From NCBI RefSeq assembly GCF_000702205.1, contig NZ_JNKW01000004.1, forward strand, positions 186,001 through 250,000: a stretch of 64,000 bases of DNA, given 5' to 3'. Numbering within the stretch: position 1 is the stretch's first letter; every line of letters begins with the position of its first letter. The notes below the pieces were generated by a model. It was not told the origin of the DNA. It did no database searches and was given only the letters and a program-made list of their open reading frames with translations. The position numbers were made by a program, and so were the translations under genes. The DNA is from Lachnospira multipara LB2003. Its GTDB lineage: Bacteria > Bacillota > Clostridia > Lachnospirales > Lachnospiraceae. This document shows, piece after piece, positions 8,399 through 47,713 of the stretch.

Positions 8399-10249
8399 TT
8401 ACTCTGTTACAGTATTATCTGAATCATTAAATAAGCTTTCAAATTCTTCTCTTGTAATCTTTTCTTTTTCAAGAAGAAGGTTTGCTGATTTTTCTAAGAC
8501 ATCTCTATTCTCAGTAATAATCTTCTTAGCTTTATCATAACATTCAGAAACAATTCTCTTAACTTCTTCATCAATTGTTGATGCTATAAGTTCTCCGTAT
8601 GGTCTTGTATGAGCTAAGTCTCTACCAATAAATACTTCATCTTGTTCTGTATCATAATTAATAGTTCCTAATTTTTCTGAAAAACCATACTTAGTTACCA
8701 TTGCTCTTGCTGTCTGAGTTGCCTGCTTAATATCCTGTGAAGCACCTGTTGTAATATCATCAAATATAAGTTCTTCTGCTACTCTACCACCAAGGCTTAC
8801 TATAATGTCTTGTAACATCTTACCCTTTGTATAAAACATTTCATCCTTTTCAGGAAGTGGCATTGTATAACCTGCAGCACCCATACCTGTAGGAATAATT
8901 GAAACTGAATGAACAGGTCCAACATCTGGTAATAAGTGGAAGAGAATTGCATGTCCTGATTCATGATATGCTGTAATCTTCTTTTCCTTTTCAGAAATAA
9001 TCTTACTCTTCTTCTCTACACCAATTCCAACCTTAACAAAAGCAAGCTTAACGTCTTCATTGCTAATGTATCTTCTCTTATTCTTAGCTGCATTAATAGC
9101 TGCTTCGTTTAAGAGATTCTCTAAATCAGCACCTGTAAATCCTGCTGTTGTTCTTGATAAACTATCTAAATCCACATCATCTCCAAGTGGCTTCTTACTT
9201 GCATGCACATTAAGAATTTCAAGTCTACCTTTAACATCAGGTCTACCTACTACAACTTTTCTATCAAAACGGCCTGGTCTTAAAATAGCAGGATCAAGAA
9301 TATCTACTCTGTTCGTAGCAGCTATTACAATAATTCCTTCATTTACACCAAAACCATCCATTTCAACAAGTAACTGGTTTAATGTCTGTTCACGTTCATC
9401 GTGTCCACCACCCATACCAGTACCTCTGCGTCTTGCTACTGCATCAATTTCATCAATAAATACAATACAAGGTGCGTTTTTCTTAGCTTCTTCAAAAAGA
9501 TCACGTACTCTAGATGCACCTACACCTACGAACATTTCAACGAAATCTGAACCTGAAATACTAAAAAATGGAACTCCTGCCTCACCTGCAACTGCCTTTG
9601 CAAGTAAAGTCTTACCTGTTCCCGGAGGGCCTGTTAAAATAACACCCTTTGGTATTCTTGCTCCAAGATTGGTATATTTATCTGGATCCTTTAGGAAGTC
9701 TACAATTTCTTCTAGCTCTTCCTTTTCTTCATGTAGTCCAGCAACGTCATCAAACTTAACTTTATTCTCCCCATCTGAAATAAGTCTAGCTCTACTCTTA
9801 CCAAAGTTCATCATCTTAGAACCACCGCCGCTTGCTGCTCCGGCTTGTCTAGACATAAATAGTAAGAATAAGACAATTGCTAAAATACTAATGCCAAAAG
9901 GTATAATAATTGATACCCATACACTAACTCTAGTCACGTCTCTTAAGACGTAATCCACATTCTCATCCTTTAGTAAATCCTGTACAGATACAACATCTGA
10001 TACATTAAGCTTTACTATCTGAGAATCCTTAAGAGTAATTGTAAGCACACCAGTCGGCACTTCTGCATTTTGTTTGATGTCAACAGATTCGATTTTCTCA
10101 TTTTTTACATCGTCAACAAATTGTTTATAGGAATAATTACCAGCCTGCTTAGACATATAGGTAATTCCAAACCAGATCAAACCAATTACAACGATGATAA
10201 ATAAGTACACTCCAATTCCACCAAACTTGTTGTCCTTCTTTGTCTCCAT
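8399..10249 (-). CDS. ftsH: ATP-dependent zinc metalloprotease FtsH
   Basis: A 616-residue membrane AAA+ protease that degrades misfolded and regulatory membrane proteins. Helices at about residues 12-30 and 112-132 flank a short extracytoplasmic region. The AAA+ module has Walker A GPPGTGKT near 208, Walker [17 protein letters not shown] and the second region of homology [19 protein letters not shown]. The zinc site is HESGH near 428. An AGGAGGAC site lies just before the start. It is the last gene of the conserved rqcP-divIC-tilS-hpt-ftsH group and ends at a strong terminator. Confidence 0.97.
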
Positions 10250-37000: not shown

Positions 37001-38630
37001 TTGCCTCTAGCTCATCGCTTACTGTACCATTTGTTGTTGTGGCTGGTAAACGTCTTACTGCCTGCACCTTAAATTTATAAGTAGTGCCAACTGTTAAACC
37101 AGTTACTGTATATTCTGTATCAGTAATTGCATCTGCAGCAACAACATAATTTTCCCCATCTGTGCTATAAGAAACGATATAAGAATCAGCTTCCTTAACT
37201 TCTGTCCAGTCAATTAAAACTGTTCCATTACCTGTACTTGTTACTGAATTAATTGTTACATTTTCAAGTGGTAAAACAAAATCAACTTCTTTGCTTTCAC
37301 TAGTCTTATCTACTTCACCTTCACGATAAATGCTAACTGTTGCAGTATATGTTCCTGATGAACTAACTGTAAATGTCTTTGAACCTGTATTACCTTCCTT
37401 TAAATACTTACTTGTCTGAGATTCTCCAGTAGTATCTGTAAGTGTAACAACAGCTCCATCTGCTCCATTTGTTCCGATTAAAGCATCGAAATCAACTGTT
37501 ACTGTACCATCTCCATTATCTACTACATTTGTTACTGTAGGATTAGCAACTTCTGACCAATCTGCTCTTACTACTTCTGCTGCCTCACCTGAAGTTTCAG
37601 TAACTTCGATCTTAAAAATGTAATTATTGTTTTCTAAACCACCTAATGCATATGTTCCTGCTTCACTTAATGTTAGTGTTGAAACACATGCTGCATTCTT
37701 AGCTAATGTCTCTGATGTCTGTGCTGCAACTTTTCCACTTGATAGGTTGTAGATTGCCATGCTTCTATTATCATCTCCGCCTTCTGCCCACCAAATCTTT
37801 ACTGTTGCACTTGCACTTGTTTTAAAGCTTACATAATTCTTTCCTGCTTCTATATCTGCTTTTCCACCAAAGTTTAATCTCTGTCCTGATGTATATTCAT
37901 CATCAAATGTCTTTGAACTTGAATCAATCTTTGTCTTTGAACTTGCAACTATTGTGAAATAGTCATCATATGCAATTTCTTGTCCATCTGTATAAGTACC
38001 TGCAGCTGTTGCTTTAAGTGTTGATGTTTCAAATGTATTAACTGTTGATGTAACAGTTGGTGTTTCAGTAACCTCAATCTTAAAAATGTAATTGTTGTTT
38101 TCTAAACCACCTAATGCATATGTTCCTGCTTCACTTAATGTAAGTGTTGAAACACATGCTGCATTCTTAGCTAATGTCTCTGATGTCTGTGATGCAACTT
38201 CTCCATTTGATAGGTTGTAAATTGCCATGCTTCTATTGTCTTCTCCGCCTTCTGCCCACCAAATCTTTACTGTTGCACTTGCACTTGTTTTAAAGCTTAC
38301 ATAGTTCTTTGCTGCTTCTATATCTGCCTTTCCACCAAAGTTTAATCTCTGTCCTGATGTATATTCATCGTCAAATGTCTTTGAACTTGAATCAATCTTT
38401 GTCTTTGAACTTGCAACTATTGTGAAATAGTCATCATATGTAATTTCTTGTCCATCTGTATAAGTACCTGCAGCTGTTGCTGTAAGTGTTGATGTTTCAA
38501 ATACATGAGTATTTGAACTATCCTCAGTGGCTCTTACACTCACAACTGAAAAATCAGTTGGCATAAGACCAACAACCATGAGAATTGCCATTGCGATTGA
38601 CATAATTCTCGCTCTCATCTTAGTCTTCAT
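34086..38630 (-). CDS. large secreted, surface-anchored pectate lyase (PL9)
   Basis: A 1514-residue modular lyase that cleaves de-esterified pectin by beta-elimination. A signal peptide (about 1-35) leads to two nearly identical 156-residue modules (about 40-350), two fibronectin-III-like modules (about 355-545) and a jelly-roll-like section (about 548-790). The PL9 parallel beta-helix starts near 928. Its calcium ligands are D1098 (DADGFAAK) and D1122, D1123 and D1126 (DDGWD), with the candidate catalytic lysine K1165 in GNGFKMGGDS; their spacing closely follows Pel9A as I recall it. A module shared with the pectinesterase (about 1359-1447), KTGDN, a hydrophobic helix and RKKKNA finish the protein. 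Confidence 0.9.
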   Translation of the reverse strand: MKTKMRARIMSIAMAILMVVGLMPTDFSVVSVRATEDSSNTHVFETSTLTATAAGTYTDGQEITYDDYFTIVASSKTKIDSSSKTFDDEYTSGQRLNFGGKADIEAAKNYVSFKTSASATVKIWWAEGGEDNRSMAIYNLSNGEVASQTSETLAKNAACVSTLTLSEAGTYALGGLENNNYIFKIEVTETPTVTSTVNTFETSTLKATAAGTYTDGQEIAYDDYFTIVASSKTKIDSSSKTFDDEYTSGQRLNFGGKADIEAGKNYVSFKTSASATVKIWWAEGGDDNRSMAIYNLSSGKVAAQTSETLAKNAACVSTLTLSEAGTYALGGLENNNYIFKIEVTETSGEAAEVVRADWSEVANPTVTNVVDNGDGTVTVDFDALIGTNGADGAVVTLTDTTGESQTSKYLKEGNTGSKTFTVSSSGTYTATVSIYREGEVDKTSESKEVDFVLPLENVTINSVTSTGNGTVLIDWTEVKEADSYIVSYSTDGENYVVAADAITDTEYTVTGLTVGTTYKFKVQAVRRLPATTTNGTVSDELEATKEAQTVWGTITYGNGANESNFTKVGDINKDGKVQLTAGKLTNGKLTGSGNNGKLVPASFDGLSFYYTSVPTDKNFTLRAKVNVDQWYLSNGQEGFGLMAADQLGGSGWNNSYMAVVSKSEYYADAEGKVTTDTTATKVTQKIGIASQEKTGLTKENLSEFEANNTAVIIANFKTSSYPLEQRYASSGNVIGNNVNSVTSEQNITEMYLTIQKNNTGYFVTYESVDGSYSVTKKYYDTEALSQIDSDSVYVGFFVSRFAQATFSDVTLNVIDKASDAPAEEQPVETIETVATIDSADSSNAANYELKFNANADGKAVVYQNGVEIANVDVKDGKQVVVNTVLNLGDNTFQVKYDPTDGYKPGEFKVMSSYDEKTLSQTVKYQAYTGDIIYVAPNANGVGTNEDPADLQTAIKFAQPGQTIVVKEGTYSYNHTLTIPRGTNGTSEKEITLVADENATTRPVISGENASGHAMEIAGDYWYIKGIDVTKSADGKDGIHLSGSHNTVDNVECYKNGNTGLQISRLSAADADKSTWPSYNYILNCTSYDNADHGYEDADGFAAKLTCGDGNVFDGCIAHNNADDGWDLFAKVQSGAIGVVTIKNSVAYANGYLSDGTNAGNGNGFKMGGDSMTGYHKLINCVAFDNKSKGIDSNSCPDIQISDSTSFNNEANNVALYTNTAANTDFSATGILSFRTENTDNGENFKLKGTQDTSKVYQATNYFWLTTDGESKDASKEVSADWFESVDTKMNYQTHVYKELPVTRNADGTINMNGLLVLTDKAAANTGATLNASTLTASKTIEVTGDVTTGLTKDNKEEDKGIVYEVLNGDGQTVVKGNSFVVRSAADFNKFVKVLVDGNEVDPANYTVTEGSTVVTFTPEYSSTLADGTHEVVIVSTDGEAKATITVASADNKEEVAADVANVANANTATNTSTSTFEQAKDNAKTGDNMMLVVYAAMMLVAGVAVLFTRKKKNA
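37594..38036 (-). repeat. second copy of a 468-bp in-gene tandem repeat
   Basis: This copy matches 38062-38504 with only scattered changes. The offset is exactly 468 bp (156 codons), so the reading frame is kept. It encodes the second N-terminal module of the pectate lyase. Confidence 0.9.
38062..38504 (-). repeat. first copy of a 468-bp in-gene tandem repeat
   Basis: The first N-terminal module of the lyase gene, nearly identical at the DNA level, including synonymous positions, to 37594-38036. This points to a recent duplication or ongoing gene conversion. Confidence 0.9.
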
Positions 38631-42515: not shown

Positions 42516-43904
42516 ATGTACAAGATTGATTTTAAAAATCCAGTTTCTGTTCACTTTATTGGTATCGGCGGAATTAGCATGAGCGGACTTGCACAAATAT
42601 TGGTTAAGGAAGGCTTTAAAGTTTCTGGTTCTGATCAAGCATCATCTAATCTTACTAAGGATTTAGAGGCTGTAGGCTGTAGGATTTCTTATCCTCAGGC
42701 TAAGGAAAATATAACAGATGATATTGATGTTGTAGTTTATACTGCTGCCATTCATCCTGATAACCCTGAATTTATGGAAGCTAAGAACAAAAATATTCCT
42801 ATGTTAACAAGAGCTGAACTATTAGGTCAGATTATGCAAAACTACCCATCAGCAATTAATGTAGCTGGTACACATGGTAAGACAACAACAACATCTATGC
42901 TTACTGAAATTTTTATGGCTGCTAACACAGATCCAACAATTTCAGTTGGAGGTATTTTAAATAGTATCGGTGGTAATGTAAGAGTTGGTAGCTCAGACAT
43001 ATTTATTACAGAGGCCTGCGAATATACTAACAGTTTCTTATCATTTAACCCAACAACTAATATCATCTTAAATGTTAAAGCTGATCACCTTGATTTCTTC
43101 AAAGACTTAGATGATATTCGTCACTCATTTAAGCTTTTTGTTGAGAAATTACCTGACAATGTTGGTACATTAATTATTAACTCAGATATTGAAGATTACA
43201 CATATTTCTTTAAGGACAAGCATTGTCATGTTATTACATTTGGCTCTGATCCTTCTAAGTCAATGTATAGCGCTAAGGACATTACATATGATGAGTTTGG
43301 ATGCTGCACTTATACATTAATTAAAGATGGCGTTGATGTAGATAGTATTAAATTAAGCGTTCCTGGAATACACAATGTTTATAACTCTCTTGCTGCAATT
43401 GCTACAGCACAAAACGAAGGAATAGACTTAAGTTTCATTAAACAGGGCCTTTTAAACTTCACAGGAACTAACAGACGTTTCCAAAAGAAGGGCGAATTTA
43501 ACGGCGTAACTGTTATTGATGATTATGCACATCATCCAGATGAAATTGAGGCAACACTTGAATCAGCTAAGCATTATCCACATAAAACAACATGGTGCGT
43601 ATTCCAGCCACATACATATACAAGAACAAAATCCCTAATGGATGAATTCGCAACAGCACTTTCAAAGGCTGATAAAGTTGTTCTTGCTAAGATTTATGCA
43701 GCTAGAGAAACAGATGATTTAGGAATTAGCTCAGCAGATCTTGCCAATAAGATTAAAGCTTTAGGCAAAGAATGTTACTATATAGATACATTTGAAGGTA
43801 TTGAAGAATTTTTACAAAAAAATTGTATCAACGGTGACTTGTTGATAACTATGGGCGCCGGCGACATTGTAAAAGTTGGTGAAGACTTAGTAAATAACCA
43901 ATAA
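42516..43904 (+). CDS. murC: UDP-N-acetylmuramate--L-alanine ligase
   Basis: A 462-residue Mur ligase that adds L-alanine to UDP-MurNAc in peptidoglycan precursor synthesis. It begins with the UDP-binding HFIGIGGISMSGLAQIL. The ATP P-loop is GTHGKTTTTSML near residue 118. EACEY and NVKADHLDFF, then GTNRRFQKKG, and VIDDYAHHPDEI with FQPHTYTRTKSL complete the family pattern. An AGAAAGAAGG site precedes the ATG. It stands alone, divergent from glgC. Confidence 0.97.
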   Translation: MYKIDFKNPVSVHFIGIGGISMSGLAQILVKEGFKVSGSDQASSNLTKDLEAVGCRISYPQAKENITDDIDVVVYTAAIHPDNPEFMEAKNKNIPMLTRAELLGQIMQNYPSAINVAGTHGKTTTTSMLTEIFMAANTDPTISVGGILNSIGGNVRVGSSDIFITEACEYTNSFLSFNPTTNIILNVKADHLDFFKDLDDIRHSFKLFVEKLPDNVGTLIINSDIEDYTYFFKDKHCHVITFGSDPSKSMYSAKDITYDEFGCCTYTLIKDGVDVDSIKLSVPGIHNVYNSLAAIATAQNEGIDLSFIKQGLLNFTGTNRRFQKKGEFNGVTVIDDYAHHPDEIEATLESAKHYPHKTTWCVFQPHTYTRTKSLMDEFATALSKADKVVLAKIYAARETDDLGISSADLANKIKALGKECYYIDTFEGIEEFLQKNCINGDLLITMGAGDIVKVGEDLVNNQ

Positions 43905-43933: not shown

Positions 43934-44096
43934 TTATCCACATTATCCACAGAGCTTATGTTAATATCGAACTAAGTTTCTGTGGATTTTATTGTTTATA
44001 AACAGTTTTTTACAGGCCACTATCTACGGGCTTTACAGCCAATTGTGAAATAAATATCCACATTATCCACAATATCCACAATCAGAATGTGTATAG
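43934..44096. promoter_or_regulatory. DnaA-box cluster upstream of the dnaD-dnaI genes
   Basis: Three exact TTATCCACA boxes lie at 43934-43942, 43943-43951 and 44063-44071. ATATCCACA boxes at 44054-44062 and 44072-44080 differ by one base. TGTGGATTT (43981-43989) and TGTGTATAG (44088-44096) are reverse-strand near matches. Boxes are head-to-tail without gaps in one pair and one triplet. The surrounding DNA is AT-rich. The cluster ends about 10 bp before the -35 box of the dnaD promoter. Confidence 0.85.
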
Positions 44097-44107
44097 CTTG
44101 TCTACAT

Positions 44108-44135
44108 TTGCAAGTTAAAATTAGTGTGTTATAAT
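44108..44135 (+). promoter_or_regulatory. promoter of the dnaD gene
   Basis: TTGCAA at 44108-44113 and TATAAT at 44130-44135 with a 16-bp spacer, about 55 bp before the start codon. Confidence 0.75.
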
Positions 44136-44188
44136 CTGTGTGACTTAAAAGACAGTGGTCAAAACTTATAATAAAGAGGGAGTTTCAA

Positions 44189-45355
44189 ATGCATAATTTA
44201 ACTTTAACTACAGACTCTGACAACAACTATACTGCCGTTCCAGACATATTTATTGATAAATACATACCTAATGCTAATGGAGAATTCGTCAAGGTATATC
44301 TCTATCTTTTACGACTTCTTTCTAATAAGAACAATAACTTAAGCATCTCCTCTCTTGCAGATATATTTGAACAGACAGAATCAGACATAATAAGAGCTTT
44401 AAGATATTGGGATAAACAAGGTCTTCTTGATCTTGATTTTAATGGAAATGGTGTTATCTGCGGAATTACACTTAAAGATCTTAATAACAGATCTAATAAT
44501 ATTATTTCCCATGTATCTAGCGGTACTAACAACGGATATGATTTAAACATTTCCCTTAAGAAAAATACCGATAATATAACAGAAACTAAAGCTAAACCTG
44601 TGGCTGAATCTAATCCTATAGTTAAGAACAATGTAATCATTAGGCCATCTATGATTGCACCTACTAAAGAAAGACTTGCTCAACTAAATGATGAAGAGGA
44701 TTTTTCTCTCCTTATGTTTGGTATTCAGTCATACCTTGGTAGACCTCTTAAGCAGACAGAAAGTAATTTAGCTGCATACCTTTATGATGAATTTAAATTC
44801 TCATCATCACTTATAGATTATTTATTCTCTTATTGCATTCAGACAGGTCATACAGATATTAGATATATCGAAGCTACTGCCCTTGCGTGGAATGAGAAGA
44901 ATATTAAGACTATAGCAGAAGCTAAAGAAGAATCAACAAATCATAGCGATGTTACAGTAAGTGTTATAAAAGCTTTCGGATTACAGGGCAGAGACCTTGC
45001 TACATCTGAGAAAGAATATATCGAAAGATGGAACAACAATTATAATTTCTCACCAGAAATTATTTCTGAGGCATGTAATCGTACTATTATTAAGACTCAT
45101 GAAGCTAGCTTCCCTTATGCAGAGTCAATCTTAAAGGGCTGGTATGAGGCTGGCATTAAGTCATTAAATGATATTTCAAAACTAGATGCAGAATTTAATG
45201 CTAAGAAGGCTAGTAACTATAACAACGGAAGCTCGTCAAAGGTAACTAGTATGACTAATAAACAAGCTTCTAAGAACAAGACTAATAAATTCAACAATTT
45301 CCAACAAAGGGAATATTCTCAGGAATTCTACGATTCCTTATATGACAACATGTAA
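44189..45355 (+). CDS. dnaD: DnaD-domain primosome protein
   Basis: A 388-residue replication-initiation protein. Residues 1-110 resemble the winged-helix DnaD N-terminal domain (FVKVYLYLLRLLSNKNNNLSISSLADIFEQTESDIIRALRYWDKQGLLDL). Residues 175-250 and 255-345 are two DnaD/DnaB-C-type helical domains, each with a tyrosine-rich IRYIEATALAWNEKNI or YAESILKGWYEAGI signature. Longer than B. subtilis DnaD and with two C-domains, so it may combine DnaD and DnaB roles in loading the helicase. The next gene is a DnaI-like loader. Confidence 0.88.
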   Translation: MHNLTLTTDSDNNYTAVPDIFIDKYIPNANGEFVKVYLYLLRLLSNKNNNLSISSLADIFEQTESDIIRALRYWDKQGLLDLDFNGNGVICGITLKDLNNRSNNIISHVSSGTNNGYDLNISLKKNTDNITETKAKPVAESNPIVKNNVIIRPSMIAPTKERLAQLNDEEDFSLLMFGIQSYLGRPLKQTESNLAAYLYDEFKFSSSLIDYLFSYCIQTGHTDIRYIEATALAWNEKNIKTIAEAKEESTNHSDVTVSVIKAFGLQGRDLATSEKEYIERWNNNYNFSPEIISEACNRTIIKTHEASFPYAESILKGWYEAGIKSLNDISKLDAEFNAKKASNYNNGSSSKVTSMTNKQASKNKTNKFNNFQQREYSQEFYDSLYDNM

Positions 45356-45449: not shown

Positions 45450-46445
45450 ATGGCTTTAACTAATACTCAATATGCTTCTGTTATGCGTACATTCGACGAT
45501 TTAAGAAGCCTAAACAACCGAATACTAGATAATAGATATGAAGAGATTAAAGCTTTATCTCCTAAACTAGAAGAAATCGACAATAAAGTTATTGAGATTT
45601 CACTTGAAGCTGCAAAGGCTAAGATTAATAAGAGTTCTAACGATTCATCTGATATTGACAACATCTTAGATTCTAAGCTTAAAAAGCTAGAGCAGGACAA
45701 GAGAGATTTACTTATTTCTCTTGGTAAGCCAGCCAACTATCTAGATGAAATTTATAACTGTCCAAAATGCCATGATACAGGCTTTATTGGACAACAGAAA
45801 TGCTCTTGTTTTAAAAAAATTGCCATTGATCTTGTATATAGAGATTCTAATCTTAAGAACATCATTAAAGATGAGAATTTCGATACATTCACATATAAAT
45901 GGTACGATGATACTGTTATAGACCCACGTTTTAAGACTACAGCACGAAAGAACATGGAGAAGGTCTATGGTATCGTTCGTAAATTTGTCAGTAATTTCGA
46001 CAAGGAATTTACCAACCTGCTAATAACTGGTAATACAGGTGTTGGTAAGACATTCCTTACAAACTGTATTGCTAAGGAATTACTAGACAGTTCACATAGT
46101 GTTATATATCTAACTGCTATCGAATTTTTTGAAAGCTTTGAAAGCAGGGATTTTAACAAAGATAGAGACAACGTAGTTGATACTCAGTATTTTTTAGATG
46201 CCGATCTTCTTATAATAGATGATTTAGGCACAGAGAACAGCAATTCTTATACTAATTCGAGATTGTTCTATATAATAAACGAACGTAGTATACGAAAAAA
46301 ACCTATGATTATTTCTGCCAATTTGGAAATTAATGAAATTGGTGATAGATACTCTGAAAGAGTTTTCTCTAGACTGCTTAGTTCCTACAAACTCTTAGGT
46401 TTGTTTGGACAGGATATTCGAATACTTAAGAGAAATAATCATTGA
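45450..46445 (+). CDS. DnaI/DnaC-like replicative helicase loader
   Basis: A 331-residue AAA+ loader. The first 100 residues form a helical region with coiled-coil character. A zinc-ribbon-like CPKCHDTGFIGQQKCSC follows at about 103-119, then the AAA+ module with Walker A TGNTGVGKTFL near 193, Walker B DLLIIDDLGTE, the sensor stretch IISANLEINEI and arginine finger region RYSERVFSRL. It matches the DnaI type that loads DnaC/DnaB helicase. AAGGAGCG lies before the ATG. It follows dnaD by 94 bp. Confidence 0.9.
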   Translation: MALTNTQYASVMRTFDDLRSLNNRILDNRYEEIKALSPKLEEIDNKVIEISLEAAKAKINKSSNDSSDIDNILDSKLKKLEQDKRDLLISLGKPANYLDEIYNCPKCHDTGFIGQQKCSCFKKIAIDLVYRDSNLKNIIKDENFDTFTYKWYDDTVIDPRFKTTARKNMEKVYGIVRKFVSNFDKEFTNLLITGNTGVGKTFLTNCIAKELLDSSHSVIYLTAIEFFESFESRDFNKDRDNVVDTQYFLDADLLIIDDLGTENSNSYTNSRLFYIINERSIRKKPMIISANLEINEIGDRYSERVFSRLLSSYKLLGLFGQDIRILKRNNH

Positions 46446-46534: not shown

Positions 46535-47713
46535 ATGCCACGAGACGAACGTCATATTGCAACTATTCCTTATGGTAAATTAGGAATTATTCCTTTAAAG
46601 AGCTGCACAGCTATGGGAGATAAGGTTGATAAGTACCTTGTAGATTGGAGAGAAAAGCGTGACAACGAAACTGTTCTTAGCGTAGCAGGTTACAAGAAGG
46701 ATTCTTATATCCTTAATGCTAAGACACCAAGATTTGGTTCAGGTGAAGGTAAGGGAACACTTAGCGATTCAGTTAGAGGTCATGACCTTTATATCATGGT
46801 TGACGTAGCTAATTACAGTCTCACATACTCGCTTAACGGCGTACCTAATAGAATGTCTCCTGATGATCACTATGCTGATCTTAAGAGAGTTATTATGGCT
46901 GCAGGTGGTAAGGCAAGACGTATTTCAGTAATTATGCCTTTCCTTTACGAGTCTAGACAGCATAAGAGAACAGGTAGAGAATCTCTTGACTGTGCTTTCA
47001 TGCTTCAAGAATTAACTAACATGGGTGTTGATAACATTATCACTTTTGATGCTCATGACCCAAGAGTACAGAACGCTATCCCTCTTAAGGGCTTCGAATC
47101 TGTATCTTGTACATATCAGTTTGTTAAATATCTTCTTCTTGGTGTTGATGATCTTCATATCGATTCAGATCATATGATGGTTATTTCTCCTGATGAAGGT
47201 GGTATGGGACGTGCTGTATATCTTGCTAACTTACTTGGTCTTGATATGGGTATGTTCTACAAGAGAAGAGATTATACAAAGATCGTTGACGGACGTAATC
47301 CTATCGTTGCTCATGAGTTCCTTGGAACTAATGTAGAAGGTAAGGATGTTATTATCATCGATGATATGATTTCATCTGGTGATTCAATGATTGATGTTGC
47401 TTCTGAACTTAAGAGACGTAAAGCAAGAAGAGTATTCTGTGCTACAACATTTGGTCTCTTTACTAACGGATTTAAGAAATTTGATGAAGCTTATGAGAAG
47501 GGCATCATCGATAAGATTCTTACAACTAACCTTATCTACCAGCCAGAAGAGCTTTTATCTAAGCCTTGGTATATCAACGTAGATATGAGTAAGTACATGG
47601 CTCTTATCATTGATACACTTAACCATGATTCATCAATTAGTAACCTCTTAAACCCTGTTGAAAGAATTCAGAATAGAGTAAGAGAATATAACGAATTACA
47701 CTACGGTAAGTAA
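46535..47713 (+). CDS. prs: ribose-phosphate pyrophosphokinase, long form
   Basis: A 392-residue PRPP synthetase relative that makes the precursor for nucleotides, histidine and tryptophan. The PRPP loop is DVIIIDDMISSGDSMIDVASEL, and MPFLYESRQHKRTGRESLDC and ISPDEGGMGRAVYLANLLG are typical. It is about 75 residues longer than the common bacterial Prs, with extra N-terminal and C-terminal segments, a form seen in Clostridia. TGGAGGAG supports the ATG at 46535; the frame extends upstream to 46481 without any ribosome site. Confidence 0.9.
   Translation: MPRDERHIATIPYGKLGIIPLKSCTAMGDKVDKYLVDWREKRDNETVLSVAGYKKDSYILNAKTPRFGSGEGKGTLSDSVRGHDLYIMVDVANYSLTYSLNGVPNRMSPDDHYADLKRVIMAAGGKARRISVIMPFLYESRQHKRTGRESLDCAFMLQELTNMGVDNIITFDAHDPRVQNAIPLKGFESVSCTYQFVKYLLLGVDDLHIDSDHMMVISPDEGGMGRAVYLANLLGLDMGMFYKRRDYTKIVDGRNPIVAHEFLGTNVEGKDVIIIDDMISSGDSMIDVASELKRRKARRVFCATTFGLFTNGFKKFDEAYEKGIIDKILTTNLIYQPEELLSKPWYINVDMSKYMALIIDTLNHDSSISNLLNPVERIQNRVREYNELHYGK

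Follow-up and report, generated by a model that had tools for sequence, protein, structure and literature searches.

Gapless DnaA-box arrays phased with a promoter match mark a probable site of DnaA control over the dnaD-dnaC helicase-loader genes in Lachnospirales

The region between murC and dnaD in the genome analyzed here (2.58 Mb in 21 contigs) probably binds DnaA and controls the dnaD-dnaC operon, with arrays of DnaA boxes that are phased to an extended -10 promoter and probably activate it. The window, that is the whole stretch of DNA that was analyzed, spans 64 kb (G000:C3:186001-250000), and all promoters discussed below are matches to the consensus. The region is bounded upstream by murC (42516..43904, + strand; TIGR01082, 478 bits). 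According to the motif scan, array 1 consists of two gapless exact DnaA boxes on the + strand (43934..43951; TTATCCACA at 43934-43942 and at 43943-43951), and array 2 of three gapless boxes on the same strand (44054..44080), namely ATATCCACA (44054-44062), TTATCCACA (44063-44071) and again ATATCCACA (44072-44080), the outer two with one mismatch each. The scan also returned a weak inverted DnaA-box-like site with two mismatches, AAATCCACA (43981..43989, - strand), located 38 bp from where the second box of array 1 begins; an inverted neighbour box at 38-39 bp occurs in 21 cases in the murC-dnaD intervals of the family. Two further weak and putative DnaA-box-like sites, with two mismatches each (44088-44096 on the - strand and 44098-44106 on the + strand), reach the -35 element of the promoter match (44107..44135, + strand), which is composed of the -35 hexamer TTTGCA (44107-44112), a 17-bp spacer and the extended -10 element TGTTATAAT (hexamer TATAAT at 44130-44135, with TG ahead of it).

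The first-pass annotation had counted seven exact or near-exact boxes in 163 bp. The cluster is real, but five sites lie within one mismatch of the consensus, and a total of seven is reached by admitting the two-mismatch sites at 43981-43989 and 44088-44096, both on the - strand. Its description of gapless head-to-tail runs that end just before the dnaD promoter holds, as the runs comprise two and three boxes, all on the + strand, and array 2 ends 26 bp ahead of the promoter match and 108 bp ahead of the dnaD ATG (44189), with its centre in the window at about -75 from the expected transcription start, as estimated from the -10 element. A likely ribosome-binding site, AAAGAGGGAG (44173..44182, + strand), was read off the sequence ahead of the gene for the dnaD-like helicase-loading protein (44189..45355, + strand), which carries two DnaB_2/DnaD-domain stretches (PF07261, 7e-37; TIGR01446, 1.7e-20). 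It is followed by the gene for a DnaC/DnaI-type AAA+ helicase loader (45450..46445, + strand; NF005304 PRK06835, 370 bits, while the DnaC and DnaI matches are weaker and do not reach the respective cut-offs) and by a conserved downstream neighbour, a prs-like ribose-phosphate pyrophosphokinase gene (46535..47713, + strand; NF005299, 595 bits). These matches agree with the earlier calls of a dnaD and a DnaI-type gene. The closest relative of the loader protein among the loci listed is from Lachnospira multipara (87% identity). Elsewhere in the window, positions 37594-38502 are occupied by a tandem repeat with a 468-bp unit, 1.9 copies and 96% matches.

Five sites within one mismatch is the highest number per 163 bp in the window, and none of 401 simulations of the window under a first-order Markov model exceeded three. 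One-mismatch boxes number 32 in the whole window against a mean of 22.9, a value reached in 8 of 100 shuffles and thus no clear excess, and exact boxes show no excess genome-wide (46 versus 54 for the reversed control). Since the box totals of window and genome show no clear excess, it is the clustering that constitutes the meaningful signal. The pattern TTATCCACAN{0,25}WTATCCACA has two matches in the 2.58-Mb genome, both at murC-dnaD, and its reversed control has one. The murC-dnaD boxes are a DnaA-box cluster outside oriC and beyond chance, with dnaA itself located on another contig. Another group of five boxes, three of them exact, was seen at positions 8678-8794 of locus L002 (G000:C4:44677-44793), within the gene for a NudC-like NUDIX protein, at a stretch where the protein has repeated VDN motifs.

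A DnaD protein search matched 149 of 150 same-family genomes (149 genera). The family set consists of 142 loci, own genome included, after omission of G025 (no match), G035, G050, G054, G059, G074, G100 and G149, and the neighbouring genes are matched in nearly all of them (murC in 139, dnaC in 141 and prs in 139). The interval between murC and dnaD, or 400 bp where murC does not form the boundary, contains 631 boxes that depart from the consensus at one position at most (318 of them exact) in these loci, against 18 expected from the flanks of the same loci. At least two boxes are present in 129 of the 142 loci and fewer than two in 13; seven loci have none, six of these with intervals of at most 76 bp. 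In L102, L116, L130, L131 and L138, where murC and dnaD are 22-64 bp apart, there is no box between the two genes, and these loci represent natural losses of the element. Similar figures were obtained from 80 named loci, partly from the same genomes as the family set: the 79 with DnaD contain 357 boxes against 10.9 expected, and 72 of them have at least two.

Beyond the family, 26 loci represent other families of the order, and 23 of them have at least two boxes, with murC upstream in 21 of those 23; this sample was composed of the best-scoring matches (30 loci from 56 genomes), so that the count leans to near relatives. In the class sample, 18 of 19 loci with dnaD-dnaC have no box within 400 bp upstream of dnaD and the remaining one has a single box, with 3.4 expected in total; the sample derives from 20 genomes of our own choice out of 147, 17 of the 19 loci lie outside the order, and a promoter located beyond the 400 bp would be missed. 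Two loci without DnaD, L270 and L315, were dropped. Conservation in relatives that keep dnaD-dnaI had been proposed as a check on the first reading, and the arrays are indeed kept in the family and beyond it within the order and are absent, at the 400-bp scale, from 18 of the 19 class loci. The element therefore seems to be a Lachnospirales feature that travels with the murC-dnaD-dnaC gene order. The sampled class loci carry dnaD-dnaC without nearby boxes; such control would therefore not be essential to helicase loading in general. In one distant member of the same class (L316, G185:C1:1079000-1087000; family f37), seven boxes, five of them exact, lie an estimated 1 kb or so upstream of dnaD (reversed positions about 2219-2774, beyond the 400 bp counted), and perhaps represent an independent case.

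The arrangement of the boxes is as characteristic as their number. In the family intervals, widened by 12 bp, 559 of 634 boxes are directed at dnaD, and same-strand neighbours are most often spaced 9 bp apart, i.e., with no gap (201 cases), or 12 bp apart (44 cases). Upstream of dnaA, as analyzed in 27 relatives (27 of the 30 dnaA loci were long enough), the two strands are evenly used (80 versus 78), and same-strand spacings are 11 bp (17 cases), 12 bp (5) and 9 bp (1). The array geometry, with its 9-bp spacing and mainly one orientation, is unlike that of the family oriC, where spacings are 11-12 bp and orientations mixed. Of 150 family genomes, 99 contain the gapless 18-mer TTATCCACAWTATCCACA and none contains its reversed control. 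Among 150 places listed for this 18-mer (more exist), 86 are upstream of dnaD (59 genomes), all 86 in the orientation of dnaD; 33 are upstream of hpf (27 genomes) and 31 elsewhere. A gapless pair is missing from 34 of the 142 family loci.

A role of the murC-dnaD region as a further origin of replication or site of helicase loading, as the adjacency of DnaA boxes and loader genes might suggest, has a next to negligible probability, given that dnaA and its own flanking box clusters (L003 and L005) are situated on another contig (C4:155881-157203). An assignment of oriC itself to murC-dnaD was rejected: the region is not beside dnaA/dnaN, and its boxes lie predominantly on one strand at 9-bp spacing. 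Runs of at least three TA[G/A] units follow none of the 631 boxes, but the same weak scan found just one such run after 256 boxes by dnaA; the longest run in the murC-dnaD region has two units, at 44169.

DnaA is the likeliest binder of the arrays, judging from the box sequences. It is very improbable that some other DNA-binding protein reads TTATCCACA as a direct repeat. Such a protein would accommodate a gapless 9-bp geometry that is not that of the family oriC, the preference of E. coli DnaA for 2-3-bp gaps as given in the available text of PMC11317965, and a mismatch spectrum unlike that of oriC at three positions (arrays versus oriC: 26 versus 8% at position 1, 14 versus 35% at position 5, and 16 versus 6% at position 9). 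On the other hand, the consensus of the single box equals the DnaA box, several variants are common to arrays and oriC (TTATCAACA, TTTTCCACA, TTATTCACA and TTATACACA), and position 8 is varied as rarely as at oriC and unlike the background (1% of one-mismatch boxes in arrays and 4% at oriC, versus 25%). Boxes within gapless pairs are mostly exact, and those 12 bp after another box are mostly weaker, e.g., TTATCAACA.

The boxes are positionally coupled to the dnaD promoter match. For the phasing analysis, 250 loci were reduced to 245 by removal of identical ends, with L299-L319 left out; L037 and L247, which share the same box pattern, are probably one genome. A gapless pair is present in 188 of the 245 loci, a promoter match at threshold in 153-154 of these, and in 115 the pair ends 40-95 bp from the -10 element, which in the other 38 of 153 loci is nearer or, mostly, farther. 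Within the wider set, TG accompanies the best promoter match in 148 of 154 loci (131 of 160 if TG is left unscored), and the -35 is poor, with 2-4 of six consensus matches in 146 of 154. The distances from pair end to -10 in the 115 loci form a comb with peaks at 49, 58-59, 66-70 and 78-79 bp, and the window, at 49 bp, falls on it. The mean resultant length R reaches 0.76 at periods of 10-10.25 bp (115 of 153 loci) versus 0.53 at the 9-bp box register, and 2000 re-pairing trials at 10.25 bp gave a mean of 0.12 and a maximum of 0.46. A 9-bp box register can in part look like a 10-bp comb; the two are close, with the better fit at 10-10.25 bp. Distances of 66-70 bp make up 34.6% of all 153, versus at most 11.8% after re-pairing, and the troughs of the comb hold 4 of 115 distances, versus 41% under a flat spread, with trough bounds that were set after the data had been viewed. 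The phase is kept when promoters are scored differently and when the modal distances are removed (R of 0.47-0.61 at 10.25 bp). The anchor was moved from the last box, which gave a less clean pattern, to the last gapless pair after a first look at the data.

There is likewise a phase between array 1 and array 2 (R of 0.58 at 11.2 bp, null maximum 0.30, 113 loci), and this result is softer because the commonest array-to-array distances, 156 and 165 bp, differ by 9 bp. Part of the phasing strength is inherited, since the re-pairing nulls break shared ancestry; yet the spacers are near-random in sequence. Thus, in 15 loci with 46 bp between pair and -35, pairwise comparison gives 92% identity for the boxes and 88% for the -10 element, but 34% for the spacer, i.e., the length of the spacer is kept and its letters have diverged. 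In several genera (L012, L015, L025, L027 and L071) the spacer between array 2 and the promoter is filled by the inverted repeat AACCCTTGATTTTACTGGGTT, whole or partial, which also occurs in L068 as the reverse complement and slightly altered.

The first-pass annotation had left two roles side by side, control of the helicase-loader genes by DnaA or titration of DnaA, and its general proposal is supported, control in particular by the phase of the last pair with the dnaD promoter match, the mutual phase of the arrays, and the absence of such a phase at hpf (TIGR00741). There, the 500 bp upstream of the gene in the best 30 loci from 143 genomes (L349-L378) contain 61 boxes against 6.9 expected, with none in 12 of the 30; in the genome analyzed here the hpf boxes lie at about 9165-9635 of locus L001 (G000:C3:24164-24634). 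Of 49 hpf loci, 33 have a gapless pair, which stands 128-322 bp away from the -10 match, and so far off the -10 is assigned with less certainty. The hpf promoters, examined as a possible replicate of the phasing, gave no clear phase (R of 0.19-0.35 over periods of 9-11.5 bp, calculated with no null), and the literature search returned no paper on DnaA boxes together with hibernation promoting factor. As to the listed gapless places at neither dnaD nor hpf (31 of 150), 18 loci were examined (L179, L182, L185-L187, L192-L195, L199, L200, L202, L207, L208, L214-L216 and L218); in 16 of these the boxes lie outside long ORFs, and several loci have the same neighbours. This hints at a third conserved gapless-box site, perhaps a titration site.

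It is improbable that the dnaD arrays are a DnaA sink and nothing more, of the kind of the B. subtilis clusters or E. coli datA, with no action on the dnaD promoter. Such a role would fit the strong consensus of the boxes, the other box clusters in the same genome, the unphased gapless arrays at hpf and the further gapless arrays at other loci, but titration does not require the fixed helical distance to the -10 seen here. Nor does it need a single orientation; however, the hpf arrays share this property (all 33 listed gapless places are in the orientation of hpf), so that orientation alone does not separate the two readings. Titration may be an added effect on top of promoter control.

As regards promoter control, the boxes, their conservation, geometry and phasing and the promoter-like sequence are features of the DNA itself, and we infer DnaA binding, contact with RNA polymerase, the loop and the sign of the effect. 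DnaA protomers would occupy the two gapless head-to-tail arrays, with their boxes directed at dnaD. Array 2, which keeps to one side of the helix with respect to an extended -10 with a poor -35, would allow DnaA to touch RNA polymerase or to shape the promoter, and array 1, phased too, would probably join through a small DNA loop. Transcription of dnaD-dnaC would then track the level or activity of DnaA, and loader supply would be tied to initiation capacity.

The sign of this control could also be the opposite, with DnaA oligomers starting on array 2, spreading over the weak boxes and shutting off dnaD-dnaC, a variant that we regard as somewhat unlikely. The five main boxes of the window are directed at the promoter and weak sites adjoin its -35, in keeping with such spreading, and DnaA represses its own promoter. 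In B. subtilis, DnaA is a transcription factor that activates sda and apparently represses several operons, as far as the available text of PMC4447404 goes. Against repression, 59 of 72 loci have their last pair 23-57 bp ahead of the -35 match and not over the promoter, and the intervening stretch, at 34% identity in the 15 loci mentioned above, is so diverged that weak boxes there are not kept as a rule. Activation is favoured because the array sits upstream of the -35 and not over the core promoter, and we consider it about twice as likely as repression.

In class I activator promoters of the CRP type, helical turns set the distance of an upstream site from the core promoter, and the dnaD element resembles them in its upstream site and its helical-turn spacing; it differs in that the putative activator is the replication initiator, present as a head-to-tail array. 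The element is also comparable to the DnaA-box clusters of B. subtilis (sda, ywlC, ywcI and others), which are located off oriC and in several cases upstream of DnaA-regulated genes (PMC4447404, as far as available), and the loss of six of which leads to early initiation (PMC5295017, available part). Unlike the dnaD arrays, these clusters are not described in the accessible portions of PMC4447404 and PMC5295017 as having a gapless single-orientation geometry or promoter phasing, and the top 20 in vitro DnaA regions of B. subtilis (of 269; Table 1 of PMC4447404) include none at dnaD or dnaB-dnaI. Double boxes with 2- or 3-bp gaps at replication and nucleotide-synthesis genes are described for E. 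coli DnaA in the accessible part of PMC11317965; there, too, the box pair is the unit, but the gap within the dnaD pair is 0 bp, with a further weaker box often at 3 bp. The Caulobacter DnaA regulon includes the dnaB helicase gene and dnaQ, with boxes predicted upstream of the helicase gene (PMC8203912, accessible part). Unlike here, the Caulobacter target is the helicase gene and not a loader operon, the phylum is different, and no phased array is described in the text available from that source. A literature search, mostly without subscription papers, found no report that places DnaA boxes at the promoter of dnaD or dnaI in Lachnospirales, and a gapless phased DnaA-box promoter element at the loader operon had no earlier description in the literature searched, as far as the sources were accessible.

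The coupling of loader supply to initiation in Gram-positive bacteria has, to our knowledge, been little studied outside B. subtilis. In its broadest form, which we advance tentatively and rate at a little below even chances, our reading is that the DnaA of Lachnospirales is a face-of-helix activator of its own loader operon, acting through a gapless double-box geometry unused by oriC and two phased arrays that loop, and that this would amount to a homeostatic coupling of initiator and loader that predates the family and may go back to the ancestor of the order. In B. subtilis, DnaD reportedly restricts the binding of DnaA (PMC4447404, in the part available), which is what would make the coupling homeostatic. 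The model predicts a 0-bp gap between boxes and tolerance of a 10-bp but not of a 5-bp insertion. Moreover, oriC-type and promoter-type DnaA-box geometries within the same genomes offer a natural contrast. With the murC-dnaD arrays, a major order of gut bacteria has a candidate control element that is conserved and defined by its sequence, and that predicts a direct link from DnaA to dnaD-dnaC.
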